From Immundisolibacterales bacterium (GTDB taxonomy: Bacteria; Pseudomonadota; Gammaproteobacteria; HK1): a DNA stretch of 64,000 bases. The notes beneath the pieces were generated by a model. The model made no database searches and was not told the origin of the DNA. It saw nothing but the letters and a program-made list of their open reading frames with translations. Of the stretch, positions 46,098 through 59,768 are shown one piece after another. A program made the translations under genes and the position numbers. Position 1 is the stretch's first letter, and the number at the start of each line of letters is the position of its first letter. The stretch spans positions 1-64,000 of the forward strand of contig JAPOPW010000055.1 in the NCBI GenBank assembly GCA_026712715.1, given 5' to 3'.

Positions 46098-46811
46098 TCA
46101 ATAAAGGAGCGCGACGTTGCAGTCCTGGCTGTCGCTCGCGATGTCGTAGATCTGCGAGCCTCCTCCGCCCGTCGCGACGCAGCTCGCTTCGCCCTGCGCC
46201 GCTTCGCCGAAGGTTGCGCCGCTGCTCACGGTGAGGCGCAGCCCGCCGGTGTCCGGCACGCCGTCGTCGATCTTGATGTCGAGCTCGCGCGCGAGATCGA
46301 CCGGCAGTCCCCGGCCGAGGACGAGATTGAGACGCACCGGGGGCGCACCGCCGGAGTGGAGATAGTCGTCCGTCCTGCCGAGCACCATGACCCGGTTGAA
46401 CGGATTGAGCGGGGCGCGCTGGTTGGCCGGCGTGGGCTCGACCGCATCGCCCGCAAACTCTCCCTTCAGGAATCCCGCCTTCGCGAGCTGTTCCCAGAGG
46501 GCGTTCGGCTCGGCCCACACGCTTCCCGAGTCGTTGTCGATCCGGCCGTTGTCGTTTCCGCCGCCGGTCACCGCGACGCCGAGGGCCTCGCCCGCTTCGG
46601 TCGCGTTCCAGTCGCCGGGAACGCGCCGGTAGCGATCGACGAAGGCGAAGTACGCGGACTGGATCCCGGCGCTCGTGGAGGCGAGGTTGCGCACCCGGGC
46701 GCTGCCGATGAGCTCCTGGCCGGTCAGAACCGCGCCGACGAGCAGCCCGACCACGACCAGCACCACGGCGATCTCGATGAGGGTGAAGCCGGCGTCTTTC
46801 CGTGCTTGCAT
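46098..46811 (-). CDS. Type IV prepilin-like protein
   Basis: MQARKDAGFTLIEIAVVLVVVGLLVGAVLTGQELIGSARVRNLAS (GFTLIE cleavage motif and TM helix). Confidence 0.88.
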   Translation of the reverse strand: MQARKDAGFTLIEIAVVLVVVGLLVGAVLTGQELIGSARVRNLASTSAGIQSAYFAFVDRYRRVPGDWNATEAGEALGVAVTGGGNDNGRIDNDSGSVWAEPNALWEQLAKAGFLKGEFAGDAVEPTPANQRAPLNPFNRVMVLGRTDDYLHSGGAPPVRLNLVLGRGLPVDLARELDIKIDDGVPDTGGLRLTVSSGATFGEAAQGEASCVATGGGGSQIYDIASDSQDCNVALLY

Positions 46812-47065: not shown

Positions 47066-47734
47066 TCACGGCCACGTTCCGGCCCGCACCAGCCGGCCGA
47101 GGAGGACGTTCTTGGACAGCCAGACGACGACATCGTCGAAGCCGCCGGAACCGGCCCGCCCCGGTACGGAGCGGGCGTAGCGGGGATCGGGGCGGGACGG
47201 ATTGACGCAGCCCGCGGAGCCGCCGCCGGTTCCGTCGTTCTCTCCGTCCGGACGACCGTTCGCGCCGCAGGAGAAGAGGATCGCGGCCGGCGCCTCCGGA
47301 TCGCCCACCGTCAGGCGTTCGGCCGTCCGCGGATCGTCTATCCGAAGGCCGCCCCGGGTGTTCGGCGGACGCGGCATGCCGTCCGGACCCGTAACGGCAT
47401 CGTTGCCCCGATACCGCAGTGGCCGCCCCCAGCCGTCCACCCCCGGGATTCCCAGGGTCGCGCGCGGAAGCTCGCCCTCGATCCCTCGGCAGGGCGCCTC
47501 CGGCGAGCCGGGAAGGTCTTCCGCCCCATCGCCGTCGATGTCCGGGCAGGGCAGCCGGTTGCCGTGCGATGCCGCATACCCGATCAGCGCCTCCAGCCCC
47601 TGGTGAAGCGCGGCTTCGGTCTCGCGCAGCCGAAACCGGTCGACCTGGGCGGCGAGCGGGATCATCAGCCCCCCGAGCAGAAGCGCGCTCACCGCAAGGG
47701 CGATGGCCACCTCGATCAGTGAGAGTCCTTCCAT
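47066..47734 (-). CDS. Type IV prepilin-like minor pilin with Cys-rich LPCPDxxGxG module
   Basis: MEGLSLIEVAIALAVSALLLGGLMIPLAAQVDRFRLRETEAALHQGLEALIGYAASHGNRLPCPDIDGDGAEDLPGSPEAPC. Confidence 0.8.
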   Translation of the reverse strand: MEGLSLIEVAIALAVSALLLGGLMIPLAAQVDRFRLRETEAALHQGLEALIGYAASHGNRLPCPDIDGDGAEDLPGSPEAPCRGIEGELPRATLGIPGVDGWGRPLRYRGNDAVTGPDGMPRPPNTRGGLRIDDPRTAERLTVGDPEAPAAILFSCGANGRPDGENDGTGGGSAGCVNPSRPDPRYARSVPGRAGSGGFDDVVVWLSKNVLLGRLVRAGTWP

Positions 47735-47943
47735 GCCCTTTGCCGGTCGCGGAGCCCGCGTCGCACCATCCCGATCGACGAGTACGGTCCCGCCCGTCGT
47801 TTCCGTCCATCCCCGAATGCCCAATGACGGATTGACGGACGGTCGGGCTGCCCGAGGGGACGGGAGATCGCCGCGCGCAGCTACCCGACCGTGGCCACGA
47901 TCGGGCCGACGTTCGGTACCGGACGTGGTGTGTCGACCACGGG

Positions 47944-49767
47944 TCACGGGTTGAAGACTCCCGGTGCGGGCGCGATGACCGAAATCCGATCGTTGAACGA
48001 TTCGTTCGAACTGCGGATCTCGTAACGGTAGTTGGCGGGATTCGCGTTTTCCCCTTCCAGCCATTGGAAGAGTCCCGGGCTCTCGCGCCGCTGGTGCGCG
48101 AGCTCCGGCCCGGCGTAGAGGGCAATCGCGACTGCGGAGTTCGTGTTCCTTCGCCCGTCGAAGGAGACACGAACGACCTCCAGGCAACGCCCCGGCGTGT
48201 CGCAGGTCTTCTCCCCACCGGCTGCGAAGGACGGCGCGATCGCGAACATGAGCAAGTGGTGCCATCGGTTCTCGTACAGCCAGCCGGGGACCGCTTCGCC
48301 GACTCCGAGCGCGTATGCGACCCCTTCCACGGCGAGCGCACCGTCGACCGGCCCCGGCTCGAATTCCAACCGGCCGCGCCCGGTCTCCACGCCGCGGGTT
48401 ACATCGACGACCTCGACGTGCGACGCTTCGACCCACTCGGTGCCGCTAATCGAGCGCCGGCGCACGTCGGTGGGAGACGGCGGTGAAATCGTGATGTCTC
48501 CAGCCAGGTGAAGGTCGACGCGGAACACCCATTCCCGCCCGGGACCCGGGACGTGCCGGCCCTCGCCGGTGCAGTCGATTCGGATCGCTTCCGTCCATAC
48601 GCACTCTCCGTGCGCGACCGTCGCGGCGCGGGCGAGCGAGCGGACATCGGCCGGGTCGACCGTTCCCGATGCGGTGACGGCCCCGCCGGGGAGAGATCCC
48701 GCAATCCGGAACGATGTGGCAATCGAGCCGCCGGCCGGAACGATCGGGAGACGCCCCGACATCACGCCGGGCACGGGCACGGCAGCGTCGGGTGGGTCGT
48801 CCCACGGGGCGAGCCAGGGGAACGCCCCCGTGTTCCACGGTGCGTCCCGGTATCGTTCCAGCCCCGCCCGCACCGCGGCCAGCGCGCGCCTCGCGGCGGC
48901 GGCCATCAGCTCGTCGCGAGAAATCGCCACCACCCGATCGTTCAGGCGGTCATGCGAGGCGAGCGCGGCGGGGAGCGATGCTCCACGCGAGACGAATGTG
49001 TCATCGCGCGGGATCTCGTTTCCCGCCTCGAGGTATTGACCCACATCGCGCCGGCTCCGGCTTCGATCCTGGAACGCGAGCGGCTCGCCCGGGGCGAGGA
49101 CGACCGCGGCGATCCTGCTTCGTCCGTCGACGACGAGCTCCGCATCCGTCTCGCCGTTCATCGGTCGGTACTTGTAGCCATTGGCTCGAAACCGGTCGGC
49201 GAGGGCATACCAGAGCCGTTCGCCCGAGCCGTCTCGCGGGTCGTGCAGTCCGAGGCGGCGCCAGGGCAACCGGCCGATCGAATTCGCACGACAGGGCGTG
49301 TTCGGTGATCCGTTGCCGCTCGTATCCGGGCACGGGAGATAGCCGGGTCCGTTGCGTCCGCCATGCTGATCCGGATAGGAGACGGCGTACCCGATGAGCC
49401 CTTCGCGGGCTGCCGCAAGGGCCGCCTCGGTCCGAAGCGCCTTGTGGTGGGAACGCGCCGTCGCCTCCAGCCACTCGATGCTCACGAGCCCCGACCCGAG
49501 AGCGAGGGCAAGCACCAGCGCGATGAGGGCCGCTCCGCGCTGAGAGCGAAGCGGACCTGACGAGTAGCGAGCGCAACGGCATGCTCCGGCTGCTTCGATC
49601 GGCACGCGTTCGAGCTCATCCAGTTTCGATTCCGTTTTAGCTGGCCCGGCCGCGCGCGCGAAGGTGCGCCGAGCCGCGGGACGACCGATCCGTAGCGTGA
49701 CCGTCCGTGGAGGCCGAACCCCCGTCCCCGCGCTCGCGCCCGCTCCACGGCACGACCGGGGACTCAA
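47944..49767 (-). CDS. PilX/MshP-like pilus assembly protein with LPCPDxxGxG module
   Basis: SQRGAALIALVLALALGSGLVSIEWLEATARSHHKALRTEAALAAAREGLIGYAVSY...GYLPCPDTSGNGSPNTPC; start uncertain. Confidence 0.65.
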   Translation of the reverse strand: MSPRSCRGAGASAGTGVRPPRTVTLRIGRPAARRTFARAAGPAKTESKLDELERVPIEAAGACRCARYSSGPLRSQRGAALIALVLALALGSGLVSIEWLEATARSHHKALRTEAALAAAREGLIGYAVSYPDQHGGRNGPGYLPCPDTSGNGSPNTPCRANSIGRLPWRRLGLHDPRDGSGERLWYALADRFRANGYKYRPMNGETDAELVVDGRSRIAAVVLAPGEPLAFQDRSRSRRDVGQYLEAGNEIPRDDTFVSRGASLPAALASHDRLNDRVVAISRDELMAAAARRALAAVRAGLERYRDAPWNTGAFPWLAPWDDPPDAAVPVPGVMSGRLPIVPAGGSIATSFRIAGSLPGGAVTASGTVDPADVRSLARAATVAHGECVWTEAIRIDCTGEGRHVPGPGREWVFRVDLHLAGDITISPPSPTDVRRRSISGTEWVEASHVEVVDVTRGVETGRGRLEFEPGPVDGALAVEGVAYALGVGEAVPGWLYENRWHHLLMFAIAPSFAAGGEKTCDTPGRCLEVVRVSFDGRRNTNSAVAIALYAGPELAHQRRESPGLFQWLEGENANPANYRYEIRSSNESFNDRISVIAPAPGVFNP

Positions 49768-50915
49768 TTCTCGTCGGGTGCCGGTGGATCGGTGAGAGGC
49801 ACGCGGGAGAACGTGCGTAGGGAATGCGCCCGCTCTGATCGGAATGCACTCCTACGGACCGGATCGCGGACGGGATCGGTGATGCGGCCGGTCGCCGGAT
49901 CGAATCGCTGTCCCGGCCGGACCGCGAACCATCTCCCTCCGGCCTCGAGACGAACCCCCGGCGGCAGGGCGCGGGACGGGGTTGTGGGGTGGATGGACCG
50001 GTCGCGGTAGTCGACTCTCTTTCCGTCGATCCATGCGAAGACCGATTGGCCCGATCGGGCGACCAGCCCTTCGACATCCACCCACTGGACCGGAAGGGAC
50101 GAAGGGGCGGGGCGGGGCGGGCGCCTGACCGTTCTCTCGTGAGCGCCTGCCTCTGCGATGCGAACGGCGGCGGCGGCGGACGAGTCGATTCGAGCTCGCT
50201 CGGCGGCCGTCATGAAGAGCCTTCCGAACCCTTCCGGCGGCGGGAAGCCGGAAGCGGGCAACGTCGCCGCAGCGCCGGCCATGGAATCGCCGTCAACGCC
50301 GTCCGTGGCAGGAGGCATCCAGCCTGCCTCGACTCCCGCGAGCGTCACCGTCTTCCATCGGAGCCGGCACGAAGCATCGATGGCCGCATGCTTCGGGGAC
50401 CCGGTCCCCCCGGAACCCGATCGCACGAGCCGACAGCCCGATACGACGAACAGCCCGCGAGCCTCCCGTTCGAGGACCGAGAGGAAATCCGGAAGCTCGC
50501 CTTCGTGCCGCATGCCGAGCTCGACCGACATGTCGGAGACCTGAACCTCGACACTGCCGTCGTGCCCCGCGCCGCGCGCCATCGCCACGCGATGATGCGC
50601 GCTCGGGACTTCGGCGGCCGCGACCCCCATCGCCTCCGCCCACTGCGTCGTGTCCCCGTTGCCAATCCGGCCGTGCGCCGCCCACAGGCGGTACAGGCGT
50701 CCGAAGTGGCGCCGCTGCCTCCGTTCGTCTTCGAGCGCGGCATGGCGCCGGCGGACCTCGGTGAGCCGCGCCTCGGCTTCGTTCGACCGCCCTGCAACGG
50801 ACAGCTCATGCCACCACGCCGCGCCAGTGGAGCCCGCACCGGCGAGCGCCGTCACGGCGAATACCGCGAGCGGTACCCTGAGGCAACGCCACGGACTCTC
50901 AGCCGCTTCCCGCAT
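49764..50915 (-). CDS. Hypothetical membrane protein in MSHA-like operon (MshJ/MshK positional equivalent)
   Basis: Single N-terminal TM plus coiled region; overlaps both neighbours (ATGA at 49764-49767). Confidence 0.6.
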   Translation of the reverse strand: MREAAESPWRCLRVPLAVFAVTALAGAGSTGAAWWHELSVAGRSNEAEARLTEVRRRHAALEDERRQRRHFGRLYRLWAAHGRIGNGDTTQWAEAMGVAAAEVPSAHHRVAMARGAGHDGSVEVQVSDMSVELGMRHEGELPDFLSVLEREARGLFVVSGCRLVRSGSGGTGSPKHAAIDASCRLRWKTVTLAGVEAGWMPPATDGVDGDSMAGAAATLPASGFPPPEGFGRLFMTAAERARIDSSAAAAVRIAEAGAHERTVRRPPRPAPSSLPVQWVDVEGLVARSGQSVFAWIDGKRVDYRDRSIHPTTPSRALPPGVRLEAGGRWFAVRPGQRFDPATGRITDPVRDPVRRSAFRSERAHSLRTFSRVPLTDPPAPDEN

Positions 50916-52443
50916 TTACCACCATCCGCACCTCGAACTCGGCAACCCGCCCCGGCCGGTAGCCGCTTCCCCCGGGGTCCTCCGGGATTTCCAAGACCTC
51001 GACACGGCTCATCCGCGGCAAGGCTTCGAGCCTCTCCACGAACCGGAACACCTCTTCGGTCGCCGCCCGATAGTGCCCGCCGAAGCGCTCGACCCTTCCC
51101 CGCAATCGGACATTTCGAAACTGCTCGCGCGGGGCGTCCTCGTCCGCCAGGTCCGGCCACCCCTCCCGCTCGGAAACCTCGAACCACTCGAGGCTGTCGA
51201 GCTCGAGGTCGGGAGAATCCGCGAGCGCTTCGCTCAGCGACTGCAGAACAGGGAGGGCCCGGACCCGATTCGCGTCGAGGCGCTGCGCCGTTTCCACCGC
51301 GAGCCGAAGGTCATGCAGCGCCACCTCCGCTTCCGGCGGCCGTTCCATGCGATAGCGCTCCTCCCGGGAATGCGCCTCCCGGACCAGGGTCTCGGTGGTT
51401 GCGACGATCCCCGCGGAGCGCTGCCACGAGAATCCGCTCCATGCGGCACCCACGAGGAGAATCGACACCCCGGCCACCCAGAGCACGCGGGCGACTTGCG
51501 TCGAACGGTGAACCGCGAGAACAGCGGCCGGGCCATAGTGGTCGGGCGGCGGCGCGCTCAGCGCGAGACGAACGAACAAGCGGTCGCAGGCCAGACCCGA
51601 TTCGCCGGTGAGCGCGTCGGATCGCCCGCGACCGCGGCGCGCGAGCACCCGCTCGACGGCATCCGCGTCGACGAGCCCTTCGACGAGCTTTCCCGGATGC
51701 GCCGTCTTCCGGATCGCGGTCAGCAGGCGCGCGTCCGCGACGAGCCGGATCTCGAGCTCCTGCCCTGCGTCGGCCGTACGATCGAGGTGGTGCACGAATC
51801 GGTCGATCTCCGTCAGGATGCCGTGAACCCGTTCGCTCGAATCGGCGGGAGGAAGGGCCGCAAGACGGCTCGACGAGAAGCGTCCGTCCTCGAAGCAGGT
51901 CTGTCGAAGGCCTCGTTCGCCGCTCTCGGTGACGAGGAGAACCCGTGCTGCTTCGACACGAAGCACCGGGAGCAGCCGCGCGCTCGCGAGGGGCAACGAA
52001 TGGACTCCGACGATTCTCTGCCCGCGAAGCGCGTCGAGCCAGGGCTCGATCCGTTCCGGACGGACGATGGCGGAGAACAGGATTCGGTCATCGCGCCGTC
52101 CCTCCGCCATCCGGCCCTCGCGCCGGGCCGATACGTAGGGCGTGCCGTGGAACAGCCGGGCGCTCCGGGTCGTGGTGACTTCCCGCCGGGCACGGCCGAA
52201 TACGTGAGGGACCGCTTCGCGCTGGAAGTCCTCTTCGACCACGTCGACGAGGAGGTGGATCGGGGGCGGCGAAGTGCGAGCCAGCAACCGCCGGAGATCG
52301 GCGTATCCCGTCGCGTCCGCTGCGAAGTCCAGCGCCGGCGCGCTCGCCGGCCGCAGCCCGCGAAACAGCCGCGCGCCGCCCGCTCGGACGATGAGCACCC
52401 AGCGGCCAGGCCGCCTAGAGAGAAATTCCGGCGACCATTTCAT
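50899..52443 (-). CDS. PilM/PilN-like (MshI-like) pilus biogenesis protein
   Basis: PilM-like N half, TM VLWVAGVSILLVGAAWSGFSW, PilN-like C half RGRVERFGGHYRAATEEVFRFVERLEALPRMSRVEVLEIP; operon position. Confidence 0.6.
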   Translation of the reverse strand: MKWSPEFLSRRPGRWVLIVRAGGARLFRGLRPASAPALDFAADATGYADLRRLLARTSPPPIHLLVDVVEEDFQREAVPHVFGRARREVTTTRSARLFHGTPYVSARREGRMAEGRRDDRILFSAIVRPERIEPWLDALRGQRIVGVHSLPLASARLLPVLRVEAARVLLVTESGERGLRQTCFEDGRFSSSRLAALPPADSSERVHGILTEIDRFVHHLDRTADAGQELEIRLVADARLLTAIRKTAHPGKLVEGLVDADAVERVLARRGRGRSDALTGESGLACDRLFVRLALSAPPPDHYGPAAVLAVHRSTQVARVLWVAGVSILLVGAAWSGFSWQRSAGIVATTETLVREAHSREERYRMERPPEAEVALHDLRLAVETAQRLDANRVRALPVLQSLSEALADSPDLELDSLEWFEVSEREGWPDLADEDAPREQFRNVRLRGRVERFGGHYRAATEEVFRFVERLEALPRMSRVEVLEIPEDPGGSGYRPGRVAEFEVRMVVNAGSG

Positions 52444-53626
52444 AGATCGGCCCCATGACCGAGATCACCACCCACAGCAGCATCGCCCCGAGCACCAGGG
52501 TGGACGCGGGGCCGATGAGGGCCTGGACCCGCTCGGCCGCGTCACGCACGTCGCGCTCGTAGAAGTAGCCGATGTTCGACAGCGCCGTGTCGAGGGCGCC
52601 GGTGCTCTCCCCGACCCGCAGCATCCTGAGCACTAGCGGAGGGAACAGTCCCGCCTGCTCGAAGCCTTCGCTGATGCTCGCGCCTTCCGCAATCCGGTTC
52701 GCCGCGGTTCGGGCCGCCTCCTCCACCGCCCGATTGGCGAGCAGGCCCTCACCGATCCGGATGCTCTCGAGCACGGATATTCCCGATGCGTACATGAGCG
52801 CAAAGCAGTTGACGAACCGGGCGAGGATGAGCTTCTTGCGGAGGGGGCCGATGAACCAGACCCGGAGACGAAGCGCATCCACGGTGCGGCGAAGGCGCCG
52901 GCTCATCCGGGCCCCCGCCGCGAGCAGCAACCAGGGGGCGGCGACCGCGGGAGCCAGGTACCACCAATCCACGGCGAACCGCGAAACCGCAATGAGGGCG
53001 CGAGCATGGATCGGGAGCTCCTCGCCCATGGTCTCGATGAAGGCGGCGAGGCGCGGGACGAGATAGAGCATGAGGAACACGATCACGGCGCCGATGACCA
53101 CGGCGACGAGAATCGGGGCGACGAGCACCTTCCTGAACCGCATTGCGTGCTCGTCGTGCCAGCGAAGGCTCTCGGTGAGACGCCTCAGCACCACGGGAAG
53201 CTGCCCGCTCGTTTCCCCGGCGCGCACCAGGTTCACGATCATCGAGTCGAAGGTCCGCGGATGCCGGGCCATCGCCTCGGAAAGGCTCGCGCCGCCATGG
53301 ATCGCCTCCACCATGCCCGCGATCACCTCGCGGAGGTGGAAACCCTTGACCGAGTCGCGAAGATCCGCGAGCGCATCGGGAATCGGAACCGAGGCGGTGA
53401 GGAGCTGTTCGAGGTGAAAGCAGAAATTGATGAGCTGGCCGCGGCGAACCGGCGGGTGCAGCGCCCAGGCTCGGGCGCTGCGCGCCGGGGCGCAGGCGAC
53501 GAGATCCAGGCCGAGGCGGCGAAGTCGCGCCTCGAGATCCAGCTCGTGCGCCGCTTCCATCCGGCCGCGGCGGATGCGCCCGTGCGCGTCCATCGCCCGA
53601 TACCGCATCGGGACGAGCGGGGTCAC
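52415..53626 (-). CDS. mshG: Type II secretion/pilus inner-membrane protein F (MshG/PilC-like)
   Basis: FCFHLEQLLTASVPIPDALADLRDS...ETSGQLPVVLRRLTESL; second GspF half FEQAGLFPPLVLRMLRVGESTGALDTALSNIGYFYERDV; GTG start overlapping upstream TGA. Confidence 0.92.
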   Translation of the reverse strand: MTPLVPMRYRAMDAHGRIRRGRMEAAHELDLEARLRRLGLDLVACAPARSARAWALHPPVRRGQLINFCFHLEQLLTASVPIPDALADLRDSVKGFHLREVIAGMVEAIHGGASLSEAMARHPRTFDSMIVNLVRAGETSGQLPVVLRRLTESLRWHDEHAMRFRKVLVAPILVAVVIGAVIVFLMLYLVPRLAAFIETMGEELPIHARALIAVSRFAVDWWYLAPAVAAPWLLLAAGARMSRRLRRTVDALRLRVWFIGPLRKKLILARFVNCFALMYASGISVLESIRIGEGLLANRAVEEAARTAANRIAEGASISEGFEQAGLFPPLVLRMLRVGESTGALDTALSNIGYFYERDVRDAAERVQALIGPASTLVLGAMLLWVVISVMGPIYEMVAGISL

Positions 53627-55473
53627 GAGCCGTCTCGCGGAGGCTCCTGCGGCGCCGCGGCAGTCCGGCCGCGCCGGCGGGGAGCCTGCTCCGCGATCGC
53701 ACCGGAAGGCCCGGACGCGAGGCTCGTGAGGTCCACGACCCGCGCGACCTCCTCGGTGGTCGTGGAGCCGTCGGCGACCCGCCGCATCGCATCCTGCGCA
53801 AGGGTGACGAACCCCCGGCGCTCCACGGCCGCAAGGAGCTCGTGAGCGGGCGCGCGGCGGGCCACCAGGGCGTCGAGCCCGGCATCGAAGCGAAGCACCT
53901 CCGTCAGCGCGATGCGGCCCCGGTAGCCTTGGTGATCGCAGTCGGAACAACCCACCGGGCGAAAGGGGTGATGCACCATGCCGCGGTCCACCGACGGGCT
54001 TGCATCGGCCGGGGTCGGGGTCGCCGCGCCGGCGGGCACCGGCTCCCGGCAGGCGGGACAGAGGCGGCGCACGAGCCTCTGGGCGACGATTCCGATGATG
54101 TTTCCGGCGAGCACGCCCGGGGTGACGCCGATGTCGAGAAGCCGCGCAATTGCGCCGACTGCGGAGTTCGTGTGCACGGTGGAGTAGACCTGATGACCCG
54201 TCATGGCCGCCTGGAAGGTCATTGCCGCGGTTTCGGCGTCTCGGATCTCGCCCACCAGGATGATGTCCGGGTCCTGGCGCATCAGGCTCCGCACGCCGTT
54301 GGCGAAGTCGAGCTTGACCGCTTCGTTGACCGAGGTCTGCCGAATCCGGGTCATGGGGTATTCGACCGGGTCCTCGAGAGTCATGACGTTGACCGCTTCG
54401 CGGTCGAGTCGGGACAGGATCGAGTAGAGGGTGGTCGTCTTGCCGCTTCCGGTGGGTCCGGTCACCAGGATCACACCCTCGGGACGTCTCATCATCCGGC
54501 CCAGCTCGGCGAGCGAGTCGTCCGACATTCCGAGCGCGTCGAGGGCGACGATTCCCCGGCCGCGATCGAGCACCCGCAGCACGATGTTCTCGCCGTGCGT
54601 GGTCGGCAGGGAAGACACCCGGAAATCGATGTCGTGGCCGGCCACCCCGAGGCTCATCCGGCCGTCCTGGGGCGCCCGGGTCTCGGCGATGTTCATGCCG
54701 CACATCACCTTGAGGCGCACCGCCATGGCGGACCAGTAGCTTCGATGGAGGCTGCGTACCTGCCGCAGCACCCCGTCGATGCGATAGCGCACGCGAAGGA
54801 AGCCCGCCTCGGGCTCGAAGTGGATATCCGATGCCCCTCGCCTTACCGCGTCGGAAAGCAGCATGTCGACGAGGCGCACCGTCGGCTGGCTGTACTCGTC
54901 GCCGGCCGCCGCGACCGTGGCCGGAACCGATTCCCCCGTCTCGAGTTCGCGCAGGATGCCGGCGACGGAGAGATCGTGGTGATAGACGCGCTCGAGAAAC
55001 CGTTCGATGTCGGTGCGACCGGCGAGCAGCGGGACGACCTCCACATCGCCCCCGAGGAGCGAACGCAGGTGATCGAGCGCAATCACGTCGAACGGATCGG
55101 CCATGGCGACGGTGAGCCGCCGGGGAACGCCATCCGGATCGGTCTCGAGGGTCAGCCCGGCCGCGAGGAACCGTCGCGCGACGGATTCCGGAATCGCTTC
55201 CGTGGCATCGGGTTCCGCCACCGCCCGGCCGAGGTCGATGCTCTCGACCCCGAGCGCCCCGCCTACCGCGTCGCGGATGATCGCCTCGGTGACGAATCCG
55301 AGCTTCGTGAGGATCCCGGCGAAACGCTCGCCGCTCTTGCGCTGCTCCGTACGGGCGATTCGCGCCTGATCCTCGCTGATCGCTCCGGAGCCGACGAGGA
55401 GGGCTTCGACCCGATCGCGAGGTTCCGTGCGCAGGGAGGCGCACGCGCCGTCCCCCGAGGTGGCGCGCGGCAT
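53623..55473 (-). CDS. mshE: Pilus assembly ATPase (MshE/GspE/PilB-like) with N-terminal MshEN-like region
   Basis: VTGPTGSGKTTTLYSILSRLDREAVNVMTLEDPVEYPMTRIRQTSVNEAVKLDFANGVRSLMRQDPDIILVGEIRDAETA; metal-site Cys tetrad CPAC...CSDC. Confidence 0.95.
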   Translation of the reverse strand: MPRATSGDGACASLRTEPRDRVEALLVGSGAISEDQARIARTEQRKSGERFAGILTKLGFVTEAIIRDAVGGALGVESIDLGRAVAEPDATEAIPESVARRFLAAGLTLETDPDGVPRRLTVAMADPFDVIALDHLRSLLGGDVEVVPLLAGRTDIERFLERVYHHDLSVAGILRELETGESVPATVAAAGDEYSQPTVRLVDMLLSDAVRRGASDIHFEPEAGFLRVRYRIDGVLRQVRSLHRSYWSAMAVRLKVMCGMNIAETRAPQDGRMSLGVAGHDIDFRVSSLPTTHGENIVLRVLDRGRGIVALDALGMSDDSLAELGRMMRRPEGVILVTGPTGSGKTTTLYSILSRLDREAVNVMTLEDPVEYPMTRIRQTSVNEAVKLDFANGVRSLMRQDPDIILVGEIRDAETAAMTFQAAMTGHQVYSTVHTNSAVGAIARLLDIGVTPGVLAGNIIGIVAQRLVRRLCPACREPVPAGAATPTPADASPSVDRGMVHHPFRPVGCSDCDHQGYRGRIALTEVLRFDAGLDALVARRAPAHELLAAVERRGFVTLAQDAMRRVADGSTTTEEVARVVDLTSLASGPSGAIAEQAPRRRGRTAAAPQEPPRDGS

Positions 55474-57695
55474 CACCGTTGCAGCTCGAGCCGCCGTTCG
55501 AGCGCCTCGGCCCGGTCGCGGACTGCGGCCAGCTCGAAAGCGGGAGGAGACAGCTCCGCGAGCTCGAGCGCATCGCGATAGCCGGCGAGGGCCCGCCGGG
55601 GCAGCGCCCGCCGGTCCGAAGCGACCGCGAGGTTGTATGCGGCGTCCGGGTTCGACGGGGCCAGCCGGCGGGCGGCCCGGTAGGCATTCGCCGCTTCGTC
55701 CCAGTCGCCCCTTCCGGCGAGCAGGTTGCCGAGCGCCACCTGGAGCCACGCCGCCTCGGGGGCACGTGCGATCCGACGCGCGACCGCGCGCTCACGCGCC
55801 GCCGTGTTTCCCCCCTCCTCGAGCACGATCGACATCGTTCCGGCGGTTTCGTCTTCGGGGGCGAGCTCGACGAGGCGCCCGTACCACGCCCTTGCCTCCG
55901 CGGTCCTTCGATCGCGGAGGGCGACCGCTCCAAGGCCGGCGAGGGCCGCGGCCGGGTGTGCGTCCAGCGCTTCGAGGTAGGCCGTGCGCGCCTCCCGGTG
56001 ATCACCGCGCCGCAAGGCGGCCCAGGCCCGCCGGAGAACATCGTTCGCGGGCGGCGCAGTCCATGATCGTCCGATTCGAAGCCGCGCCGGCGCGTCGCCG
56101 GCCGATGGCAGGGCCGCCGTCCCCGCCGCGGCCGGATTCGGTTCCGGTCCCCGGGCGCGATCGGCGTCAGCTTCGTTCGCGCCGAACGGGCCGTCCGCCG
56201 ACGGCCACCAGCGACGGTACTTCCGGAGCCCGCCGGCGAGACGCGGCTCGCGGACCACCGTCGGACGCAGGAACACGACGAGCTCCGTCTTGTCCTGCTG
56301 CCGATCCCGGTAGCGGAACGCCGAGCCGATTCCTGGCAGGCGCGAGAGCAGCGGGACCCCCGCGGTGTCCTCGCGCGACTCCTCGCGCATGAGCCCCCCG
56401 AGCACCGCGACCTCCCCGCTTCGCAGGCGCAGCACCGACTCGATCTCCCGGATCGCGATCTCCGGAATCCGGCTCACCACGCCGGCCGCCGCGAGCTCGG
56501 GGTTCGGGTCGACCGCGAACCCGATCTCGCGGGTGACGGTGGGGCGAATCTTCAGGATGACCTCGTCGCCGGCCGCGACCGAAGGCGTGACGAGGAGGAT
56601 GAGCCCGACCGGAACGGTATGGAGATTCGTCTGCACGTTCCGCTCGACCGTCGTCTCGTTCGTCTCGGTCCGGACCTCGGAGGTGAAGAACACCCGGTTT
56701 TCGGCGATCTTCACGAGCGCGGTCTGGTTGTTGAGGGTCATGACGAGGGGCGTCGAGAGCACCCGCACGTCCCCGAACTCGCTGAGGAGCCGCACGGTCA
56801 GCGAGAGGTCCGGGATCGAGAGCCGGGCAACGGGCGGGTTGGCGAGGTTCCCGCCGAGCAGGCCGGCCTCGAGCTCGACTGCACCGAGCACACGCGAGAA
56901 GTCCACTCCGCTGCGGAAGCGATCGTCGAGATCGACCTCGACGATCGTCGCCTCGATCAACACCTGGCGGTGGGCGCTCGCGAGGATGCGATCGAGCAGC
57001 AGCGCCACCTCGCGATGGCCGCCCGCCCGCGCCCGCACCGCGATGAGACTGGTCTCGCGATGCGCGAACACGTGCGCGGCGCCGTCCGGTTCCTCGCCGA
57101 GCACGGCCCGCAGCGACTCCACCAGAGCGTCCCAGAACCGATGCTCCGTCCGCGCCGTCACGTTTGCGGCGGAGCCGTTCTCGTCGGCGGCATCCGCACC
57201 GATTCCGCTCCCGATTCCGGTCCCCATCTCGTTCACGGTCAGCGTCTCCCGGGCGAACGGGACGTAGTCGATCGCGTAGGTGCGAAGCACCGGTTCGTCA
57301 CGGCGCGCGACGAGGGTGCCGCCTTCCGCGTCGACCCTGATCCCGGCGTGCCGGGAGATGCGCTCGAGGAGGAGGGGAAGCGGCTGTTCGACCGCGTTCA
57401 TGGTCACCCGCCCGTCTATCCCGGGGTCGATGTCCATGTCGACACCCGCATCGCGGGCCAGGGCGAACAGGAGCTCGGCGACCGGAACGTCCTCGACCGC
57501 GACCGACCAGGTTTCCTCCGGGGGCGGCGACGCGGGCTCGGGCACCGGCGGCGGGGTCAGTACCGGAGGGGGGATGCGGGCATCGTCGCGAACGGGGGGC
57601 GGGTGCACGCCCCCCGCGCAGCCCACCGCGATGGAGAGGGCGACGACCGGGACCGAGAGGCGGAGGACGAGACGCGTCCCCGCCGGACGGGGCAT
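55473..57695 (-). CDS. MshL-like secretin fused to C-terminal TPR (MshN-like) domain
   Basis: Lipoprotein leader IAVGC; secretin core VPVGLILLVTPSVAAGDEVILKIRPTVTREIG...IPEIAIREIESVLRLRSGEVAVLGGLMREE; then ANDVLRRAWAALRRGDHREARTAYLEALDAHPAAALAGLGAVAL... TPRs to the stop. Confidence 0.9.
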   Translation of the reverse strand: MPRPAGTRLVLRLSVPVVALSIAVGCAGGVHPPPVRDDARIPPPVLTPPPVPEPASPPPEETWSVAVEDVPVAELLFALARDAGVDMDIDPGIDGRVTMNAVEQPLPLLLERISRHAGIRVDAEGGTLVARRDEPVLRTYAIDYVPFARETLTVNEMGTGIGSGIGADAADENGSAANVTARTEHRFWDALVESLRAVLGEEPDGAAHVFAHRETSLIAVRARAGGHREVALLLDRILASAHRQVLIEATIVEVDLDDRFRSGVDFSRVLGAVELEAGLLGGNLANPPVARLSIPDLSLTVRLLSEFGDVRVLSTPLVMTLNNQTALVKIAENRVFFTSEVRTETNETTVERNVQTNLHTVPVGLILLVTPSVAAGDEVILKIRPTVTREIGFAVDPNPELAAAGVVSRIPEIAIREIESVLRLRSGEVAVLGGLMREESREDTAGVPLLSRLPGIGSAFRYRDRQQDKTELVVFLRPTVVREPRLAGGLRKYRRWWPSADGPFGANEADADRARGPEPNPAAAGTAALPSAGDAPARLRIGRSWTAPPANDVLRRAWAALRRGDHREARTAYLEALDAHPAAALAGLGAVALRDRRTAEARAWYGRLVELAPEDETAGTMSIVLEEGGNTAARERAVARRIARAPEAAWLQVALGNLLAGRGDWDEAANAYRAARRLAPSNPDAAYNLAVASDRRALPRRALAGYRDALELAELSPPAFELAAVRDRAEALERRLELQR

Positions 57696-58170
57696 CGTTC
57701 CCGGCAAGGACACCGCTCCGAGATGAAGGTTCCGGGCCCGAGTCCGGGCTCGGCTCTTCGGCCCGGCCCCAGTTCCGATTCCGGTCCCGGTCCCGATGTC
57801 CGACCCGGACTCTTCCGGCGGAGCCCCCTCCGGGTCGGTCGAACGAAGCCGGGCCGGCCGGCACGGCTCGGGCCGTGTCGCGCTCGGCTCCACCCGCGAC
57901 CCGCACGGTGACCCGCTCCGCACGGTGGCCGGCGAAGTGGTCGCGGGCCTGCTCCGCTCCCTGTCCATGGGGTGAAGATTCTGCGAACGAGAGGGCGGCC
58001 GGAACAGGGGCGAACGGCGCGTCCGGCCCGGAAAATCGGACCATCGTGCGTAGGAATTGCGGGCGCTCTTCGTAGGCGCGCGGCGCGAGGCTCCCGCGCA
58101 TGCGCGTTACGCCATAGAATGCGCTGACGGATCGCAACGGACCGGCCGCCCTCGACCCGAGGGGAACTGC

Positions 58171-58662
58171 GTGGAAATTGACTGGACGGCACTCCTCGTA
58201 TCGCTCGGCCTGCTCGGAGCCGCCGCCGCGCTGGCCGTGCTCGAGGTCTTCGTGGTTTCCTTCGGGCTGCTGCTCATCGCGGCCGTCGCCTGCGCGGTCG
58301 GCTCGATCCGGTACGCGTTCGACGCGCACGAGGCAGTGGGCTGGACGAGCGTCGTCATCATCCCCGTCGCGGCGCTCTACGTTGCGCGATGGGGGTTCGT
58401 CCGCATCCGCGCCTCGCGCTCCGCCGTGCCGAAGTCCGAGATTGTCGCCGACGCCGGCTACCGGCACCTCGCCGAACGGCTCGCCGTCGGTCCGGGCTCC
58501 GAAGGGGTGCTCGTCACCCCGGCCCGTCCGATCGGCCGGGCCCGTTTCGCCGGCGGGGAGTGTGACGTCCAGGTGCACGGCCCGGTTCTCGAGGCGGGGG
58601 CCGAGGTGGTCGTCGAACGCATCGACGGCCCCATCATTTTCGTAAACCAGGCGCCGTCCTGA
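58171..58662 (+). CDS. NfeD-family membrane protein
   Basis: TM cluster then C-terminal OB-like GSEGVLVTPARPIGRARFAGGECDVQVHGPVLEAGAEVVVERIDGPIIFV; adjacent to floA. Confidence 0.82.
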   Translation: MEIDWTALLVSLGLLGAAAALAVLEVFVVSFGLLLIAAVACAVGSIRYAFDAHEAVGWTSVVIIPVAALYVARWGFVRIRASRSAVPKSEIVADAGYRHLAERLAVGPGSEGVLVTPARPIGRARFAGGECDVQVHGPVLEAGAEVVVERIDGPIIFVNQAPS

Positions 58663-58730
58663 TCGCGGCACAACCCGTTCCGGGGCCCGTCCAGGGGACT
58701 CGTTCCGGGAACCAAGGAGACTGAACCGAC

Positions 58731-59768
58731 ATGATCATCGAACTCATCGGCATCGCGATCGGCGCGATCATCGTACTCGTCATATTCGCCCTCGTCTGGA
58801 ACTCGTTCTGGCTCTGGTGGCAATCCATCCTCTCGAACGCCCCGGTGAGCCTCGTCCAGATCATCTTCATGCGGTTCCGCAAGGTGAATCCCGGGACCAT
58901 CGTCACCGCGCGGATCACCGCCCGCAAGGCGGGGATCGAGGTGACCGGAGACGACCTCGAGGCGCACTATCTCGCGGGCGGAAACGTCGTGCGAGTGGTG
59001 CAGGCGATCATCTCCGCCAACAAGGCCAACATCGAGCTCTCCTACGACCGCTGCTGCGCGATCGACCTCGCGGGACGGGACGCCAAGGAGGCGGTCGACA
59101 CCTCCGTCAACCCCAAGGTGATCGACGTGCCGTCCGGCACGATGGCGCGCAGCACCATCGACGCGATCGCGGGGGACGGGATCCAGCTCCGGGTGAAGGC
59201 CCGGGTCACGGTGCGGACCAACCTCGAACGGCTGGTCGGCGGCGCGACCGAAGAGACGATCGTCGCCCGGGTCGGCGAGGGCATCGTGACCACCATCGGG
59301 TCGGCGGAGAACCACATGCGGGTCCTCGAGAACCCCGACCGGATATCCAAGGTGGTGCTGGAACGCGGACTCGATTCGGGGACCGCGTTCGAGATCCTCT
59401 CGATCGACATCGCCGACATCGACGTCGGCGACAACGTCGGGGCGCGACTCAAGATCGACCAGGCGGAGGCCGAGAAGCAGGTGGCCCAGGCCCAGGCCGA
59501 GCGCCAGCGGGCCCTTGCGGTGGCCCGCGAGCAGGAGATGGTCGCCCTCGTCCAGGAGAACCAGGCCAAGGTGGTGCTGGCCGAAGCGGAGGTGCCGAAG
59601 GCGATCGCGGACGCGTTCCGGAGCGGCAACCTCGGCATCATGGACTACTACGGCATGCAGAATATCCAGGCCGACACGAGGATGCGCGGAAGTCTCGCCG
59701 GCGGCGAGCGGGGCGATGACGAGGGGGCCCAGCCCGGCGCGCCGGGCGGGGCCGCCGATCCGCGCTGA
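58731..59768 (+). CDS. floA: Flotillin-like protein FloA (UPF0365/YqfA)
   Basis: [73 protein letters not shown]...[21 protein letters not shown]. Confidence 0.95.

Follow-up and report, generated by a model that had tools for sequence, protein, structure and literature searches.

Mannose-sensitive hemagglutinin (MSHA) pili of Vibrio cholerae are specified by a locus in which the secretin MshL and the tetratricopeptide repeat (TPR) protein MshN are encoded separately, with mshM between the two genes (VC0402–VC0404; PMC4624765), as a preliminary description of the DNA studied here had correctly stated. MshN is a distant homolog of TadD (PMC6668835), a five-TPR lipoprotein pilotin whose groove holds the last residues of the secretin RcpA and which is needed for RcpA assembly (PMC10499894). 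The GspB proteins ExeB and OutB, which have the same layout as MshN, bind secretin N-domains directly (PMC4098917; PMC9239104), and fusions of GspA with GspB are known (PMC9239104). The window analyzed here is a 64,000-nucleotide stretch from an Immundisolibacterales bacterium (GenBank assembly GCA_026712715.1, contig JAPOPW010000055.1, positions 1 to 64,000) and contains a gene in which an MshL-type secretin and the TPR domain of MshN form a single polypeptide. It is proposed, with a probability of roughly 0.6, that in this natural MshL-MshN fusion the TPRs, formerly tethered to the inner membrane, now reside on the outer membrane secretin, where they form an integral module for its assembly or stability.

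The fused open reading frame extends from an ATG at 57695 to a TGA at 55475–55473 and includes no internal stop codons. A longer frame of 831 residues starting at 57968 was rejected as a mechanical call, the lipoprotein signal beginning at 57695; a lipobox-like IAVGC ending at Cys-26 was recognized by eye. Pfam assigned a Secretin domain to residues 304–482 (131.6 bits, E = 2.8e-38) and TPR families across residues 554–692, with both regions scoring above cut-off. The best NCBIfam secretin model was TIGR02519 (MshL), although the score of 208.1 bits falls short of the equivalog cut-off of 250.2 bits; the other hallmarks of MshL, namely the secretin domain, the N-domains, the lipoprotein leader as judged by eye, and adjoining mshE and mshG genes, are all present. 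An MshN model built in this analysis scored 140 bits (E = 2.3e-40) over the TPR region, which establishes homology with MshN and shows that the domains are not a chance resemblance. In the AlphaFold model the secretin is followed by a segment (~497–547) with a predicted local distance difference test score (pLDDT) mostly <50, and then by ten TPR helices (550–713) and a capping helix (722–739) with block-mean pLDDT values of 92–98, corresponding to five TPRs. Foldseek matched the whole protein to the secretins BfpB, PilQ and GspD, and matched the last 205 residues, modeled alone, to general TPR proteins such as TTC0263 (TM-scores 0.72/0.76). Thus, the assertion that one frame carries a leader, N-domains, a secretin, a linker and four to five TPRs, and that an MshL-type secretin is joined to an MshN TPR domain, is borne out, and the prospect that the C-terminal helices might not be TPRs was contradicted by Pfam, AlphaFold and Foldseek alike. 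The preliminary description overlooked that no more than the last ~200 residues of MshN take part in the fusion.

The same fusion is carried, free of stop codons, by three independent assemblies in addition to the window genome (G000): G001 (locus L089), G002 (L090), in which it sits on one contig of 5.09 Mb, and G003 (L091), which is Thioalkalivibrio sp. HK1. The two fused proteins from the same genus are 72–74% identical to that of the window over the whole length. A fifth fusion (L102) occurs in a betaproteobacterial metagenome-assembled genome (MAG) that is unrelated to the window clade. The search for homologous fusions advocated earlier was therefore positive, and a missed frameshift or stop codon between the domains is excluded as far as the assemblies show. 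Within the genus, pairwise ratios of nonsynonymous to synonymous substitution rates (dN/dS) were 0.12–0.19 for the secretin, 0.33–0.49 for the TPR part and 0.45–0.77 for the linker. As judged by its dN/dS, the TPR part is under purifying selection that is looser than that acting on the pore.

Separate MshN proteins typically comprise 390–850 residues with one predicted transmembrane segment. An N-terminal helix of the MSLLMDALKKAEKA type leads into a variable acidic stretch, after which come the hydrophobic segment, a linker rich in Pro and Ala and, last, the TPR domain. The short N-terminal helix is expected to be cytosolic, whereas the linker and TPR domain would be periplasmic. The fused TPRs align only to positions 351–570 of the 574-position MshN model. 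The fusion lacks both the transmembrane anchor and the N-terminal helix of the MSLLMDALKKAEK type, neither of which was found elsewhere in G000–G003, and the MshN model detected no other full-length MshN anywhere in these genomes. The N-terminal parts of separate MshN proteins usually include a hydrophobic segment with a maximum 19-residue Kyte-Doolittle mean of mostly 1.3–2.9, whereas the fusion linkers have no hydrophobic stretch (mean of 0.36 or less). A D[FL]xxYRxFLP-like tail motif occurs in many unfused MshL proteins. In the fusions of the window genus and of L102, this motif survives ahead of the linker. Thus, the cytosolic helix, the membrane anchor and part of the Pro/Ala linker of MshN have been deleted, and the MshL tail has been kept in the window genus and L102. 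The periplasmic location that had been expected for the TPR domain is consistent with this architecture.

The 110 stretches around MshL relatives that were collected, 30 from the genomes of relatives and 80 from a contig scan, were classified along with the window by profiles for the secretin, MshN TPR, MshM, MshE and MshG. Once duplicates and stretches without mshE had been dropped, 79 distinct loci remained, among which mshN was separate in 63, a shortened separate TPR gene was present in six, the genes were fused in five, and no TPR gene was found in five. At L036 (G004) and L056 (G072), mshE comes immediately after mshL and no TPR gene was found, and the TPR module apparently can be lost altogether. 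A separate mshN usually overlaps the mshL stop codon by one base or begins 5–25 nucleotides downstream, and mshM, where present in the relatives, is upstream of mshL. The gene arrangements point to mshM-mshL-mshN-mshE-mshG as the ancestral order in the clade concerned. The suggestion that deletion of an intervening mshM joined mshL to mshN consequently fails: the two genes are adjacent in the relatives, mshM is upstream of mshL and not between them, and mshM is absent also from unfused sisters. Given this order, the fusion step amounts to loss of the mshL stop codon and of 5′ mshN codons; the number removed is estimated as the first ~260–630, which is the range across the separate MshN proteins of the family.

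A tree of MshE and MshG, obtained by a quick IQ-TREE search from which the fused gene itself was excluded, separated the four fused genomes from the remaining loci at a branch that has 100% support in the Shimodaira-Hasegawa-like approximate likelihood ratio test; they lie amid relatives with a separate mshN. L102 stands apart on a long branch, whose exact placement is unsure, and two origins of the fusion are therefore indicated. Whole-genome searches failed to detect mshM in the fused clade, of which the G000 assembly is ~98% complete, in G004, or in the unfused members G010, G013, G015 and G016 of the same family. Its loss thus appears to be earlier than, and separate from, the fusion, and probably preceded it in the main clade. 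As the L102 fusion retains mshM upstream, loss of mshM was neither required for fusion nor the mechanism. A further clade of six loci (L104, L106, L108, L110, L114 and L149; 100% support) carries, immediately downstream of mshL, a short TPR gene of its own whose start resembles a signal peptide. These genomes lack mshM, and a membrane-anchored MshN is missing as well. The clade would represent another way of arriving at a periplasmic TPR protein that lacks the original anchor.

The N-terminal motif of MshN was observed in all 51 readable loci with both mshM and a separate mshN (47 identified by script and four with GTG starts by hand; one further case was masked). All ten genomes tested that combine a separate TPR gene with the lack of mshM are without the motif; they comprise only two clades and therefore few independent events. 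A GspB-like protein in G052 starts with MSYILDALKKSELER, resembling the start of MshN and suggesting that MshM and MshN resemble the GspA/GspB pair, a likeness also suggested by the similarity of V. cholerae MshM to ExeA (PMC4624765). A search with PF16537 (GspB) gave no match in G000. The distribution of the motif suggests that the N-terminal helix of MshN serves MshM. Tentatively, and at somewhat less than even odds, MshN can be viewed as a helix module for MshM and a TPR module for MshL, the fusion being a covalent TPR pilotin on a self-contained secretin; in the same scheme the TPR module would persist in membrane-anchored, soluble and secretin-fused forms.

The proposed assembly or stability module would have arisen when a deletion from the mshN start into the linker brought the TPR domain next to a complete MshL tail in one chain. 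The TPRs would remain periplasmic, but would now be held by the outer membrane secretin with one copy per subunit. Secretin rings typically comprise 12–15 subunits, a copy number that is presumed to apply here. The linker of ~40–60 residues would let the TPR domain reach the MshL tail of its own or a neighboring subunit, and the TPRs may bind the C-terminal tail or barrel base of the secretin in the manner of TadD and PilF-type pilotins. The precedents of TadD, ExeB and OutB, together with the position of the TPR domain just past the MshL tail, favor a covalent module of this type. Several points weigh against it. The HK1 protein lacks the MshL tail motif at the joint, and evolution of the TPR part outpaces that of the secretin, with dN/dS about two to four times higher. 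MshL carries a lipid of its own and might need no help to reach the outer membrane. In addition, V. cholerae deleted for mshN showed no reduction in surface MSHA pili (PMC4624765), which implies that this species can do without any pilotin-like activity of MshN.

The persistence of piliation in V. cholerae mshN mutants is more readily accommodated if the TPR domain is not an assembly helper but a docking arm for another periplasmic or inner membrane part, such as the pilus platform or a peptidoglycan protein, with the tether to MshL placing it at the pore in replacement of a former inner membrane link through MshM and MshN. MshN is normally membrane-anchored and is both syntenic and co-lost with MshM, an ExeA-like ATPase, and OutB anchors its secretin to the inner membrane and peptidoglycan (PMC9239104). 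However, the fusion loses the direct inner membrane link, the TPR protein of another clade looks soluble, and no alternative partner was found. A docking function is considered unlikely. Neutral erosion, in which the role of MshN disappeared with mshM and a TPR remnant rides on MshL without function, is less likely still. It fits the apparent order of events in the main clade, where fusion seems to follow mshM loss, the retention of mshL-mshE without a TPR gene in G004 and G072, and the elevated dN/dS of the TPR part relative to the secretin, but is at odds with conservation of the TPR fold and frame in four divergent genomes at dN/dS well under 1, and with an independent fusion in a second lineage that retained mshM. 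Merging of two genes by a sequencing or assembly artefact, for which nothing speaks other than the draft status of some MAGs, was rejected as a negligible prospect because the same joint region recurs in four assemblies, including the 5.09 Mb contig and HK1, and an unrelated MAG is also fused. Covalent attachment of an assembly or stability module is the favored interpretation.

Fusions of this kind are rare, being confined to five of the 79 loci. Strong MshL-type matches were obtained in 75 of 369 genomes sampled throughout the class, and re-reading of 13 loci from this class-wide set with long or broken frames revealed no fusion beyond that of the window itself; nor did a search of the order, whose 17 genomes were all part of the set already, add an example. 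No description of an MshL-MshN or secretin-TPR fusion was found in the open-access literature, which does not prove that none exists. A second TPR-secretin fusion is present in the window genome on contig C47 (111011–113590, minus strand; L187:9532–12111), where an 860-residue frame opens with a lipoprotein leader and TadD-like TPRs and continues through a linker rich in Pro into T2SS-T3SS_pil_N, a domain characteristic of RcpA/CpaC, and then a secretin. C47 also holds a T2SSE ATPase and two T2SSF proteins. The product is the Tad secretin of the genome, with the TPRs at the N-terminus. Similar N-terminal TPR-secretin frames occur in the relatives G001, G015 and G016. The TPRs come first in the C47 protein, which indicates that fusion of TPRs to secretins happened in two filament systems of the family; given that the same genome fuses TPRs to the Tad secretin, a single cell envelope may twice have exchanged a free-standing secretin helper for a covalently tethered one. 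Elsewhere on C47 (91999–93978, minus strand; L188:4000–5979), a 660-residue frame has a TPR-like start (EILHTHPNRPEARINLALLDAA) and T2SSF near the C-terminus; it may be one more TPR fusion of the Tad locus, or its start may be misplaced.

The fused gene leads an operon for a type IV pilus of the MSHA-like kind (Table 1) and its stop codon overlaps the start of the mshE-like gene by one base (TGATG). Position and size suggest an MshI/PilM-N role for the 514-residue protein, and a PilO/MshJ role is possible for the 383-residue protein. The MSH pilus model that specifies mshA, mshE, mshG, mshL and mshM as mandatory (PMC6668835) is matched by mshE-, mshG- and mshL-type genes in the operon, but mshM was not found. 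NfeD-like and FloA (flotillin-like) genes lie divergently on the plus strand directly upstream of the operon (58057–59768), at the position at which many relatives have mshM. No match to the PilT family exceeded the cut-off in G000, G001, G002 or G003, whereas the unfused G010 and G015 each gave a match. The pilus of the fused clade may operate without the usual retraction ATPase, an observation that is recorded here without linking it to the fusion.

Table 1. Features of the fused gene and of the pilus operon that it leads (positions are those of the window).
Feature	Position	Strand	Basis
Fused mshL-mshN(TPR) gene, opens pilus operon, 740 aa	55473..57695	-	ORF, NCBIfam, Pfam, AlphaFold
Lipoprotein signal peptide, aa 1-25	57621..57695	-	Sequence, judged by eye
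MshL periplasmic N-domains, aa 61-300	56796..57515	-	AlphaFold model and alignment to unfused MshL
Secretin domain, aa 304-482	56250..56786	-	PF00263
Native MshL C-terminal tail GLRKYRRWWP, which matches D[FL]xxYRxFLP of unfused MshL, then Pro/Ala-rich disordered linker; fusion joint	56055..56249	-	
Five TPRs and capping helix, aa 550-739	55479..56048	-	Homologous to C-terminal ~200 aa of MshN
mshE-like extension ATPase (MshEN + T2SSE)	53623..55473	-	TGATG overlap with fused gene; Pfam
mshG-like inner membrane platform protein (T2SSF)	52415..53608	-	Pfam
514-aa protein, conserved in operon	50899..52443	-	Synteny; no Pfam or NCBIfam match
383-aa protein, conserved in operon	49764..50915	-	Synteny; no Pfam or NCBIfam match
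607-aa frame with prepilin-like hydrophobic stretch, conserved in operon	47944..49767	-	Synteny; no Pfam match
Prepilin-like protein, weak N_methyl match	47066..47800	-	Pfam, synteny
Prepilin-like protein (N_methyl, GFxxxE)	46098..46811	-	Pfam

The occurrence of natural fusions with two origins suggests that the TPRs of MshN act at the MshL pore. MshM and MshN knockouts in V. cholerae have no piliation defect, and the fusion makes the mode of action of these proteins testable; the fused clade is gammaproteobacterial, includes Thioalkalivibrio sp. HK1, and points to where the helper MshN acts. The fixed 1:1 ratio could favor the fused protein as a target for cryo-electron microscopy of a pilus secretin with its TPR partner.

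Among known proteins, the NCBIfam model NF042912 for Amuc_1098-type PilQ secretins matches the window fusion weakly. We take these proteins, in which TPRs and a secretin share one chain with the TPRs N-terminal, to be a different family. The GspA/GspB systems (ExeA/ExeB, OutB) similarly pair an AAA ATPase with a partner that has a single transmembrane segment and a similar N-terminal helix and that binds the secretin, but GspB has an HR domain instead of TPRs, and the described fusions join GspB to GspA and not to the secretin (PMC9239104). The array of five TPRs corresponds to that of TPR pilotins (TadD, PilF/PilW), which are separate lipoproteins, whereas the window TPRs have no signal of their own and are borne by a lipidated secretin. 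In the TadD-RcpA pair of Tad pili, a five-TPR periplasmic protein likewise acts at a pilus secretin and TadD binds its C-terminal tip (PMC10499894); in the window the two are linked covalently, with lipidation at the secretin end. Close counterparts also include MshL and MshN of V. cholerae (VC0402 and VC0404), which share the secretin and the C-terminal TPR homology and likewise are followed by mshE and mshG, but are separate proteins whose genes flank mshM, whereas the window encodes one polypeptide without the MshN N-terminus and anchor in a genome in which mshM was not found.

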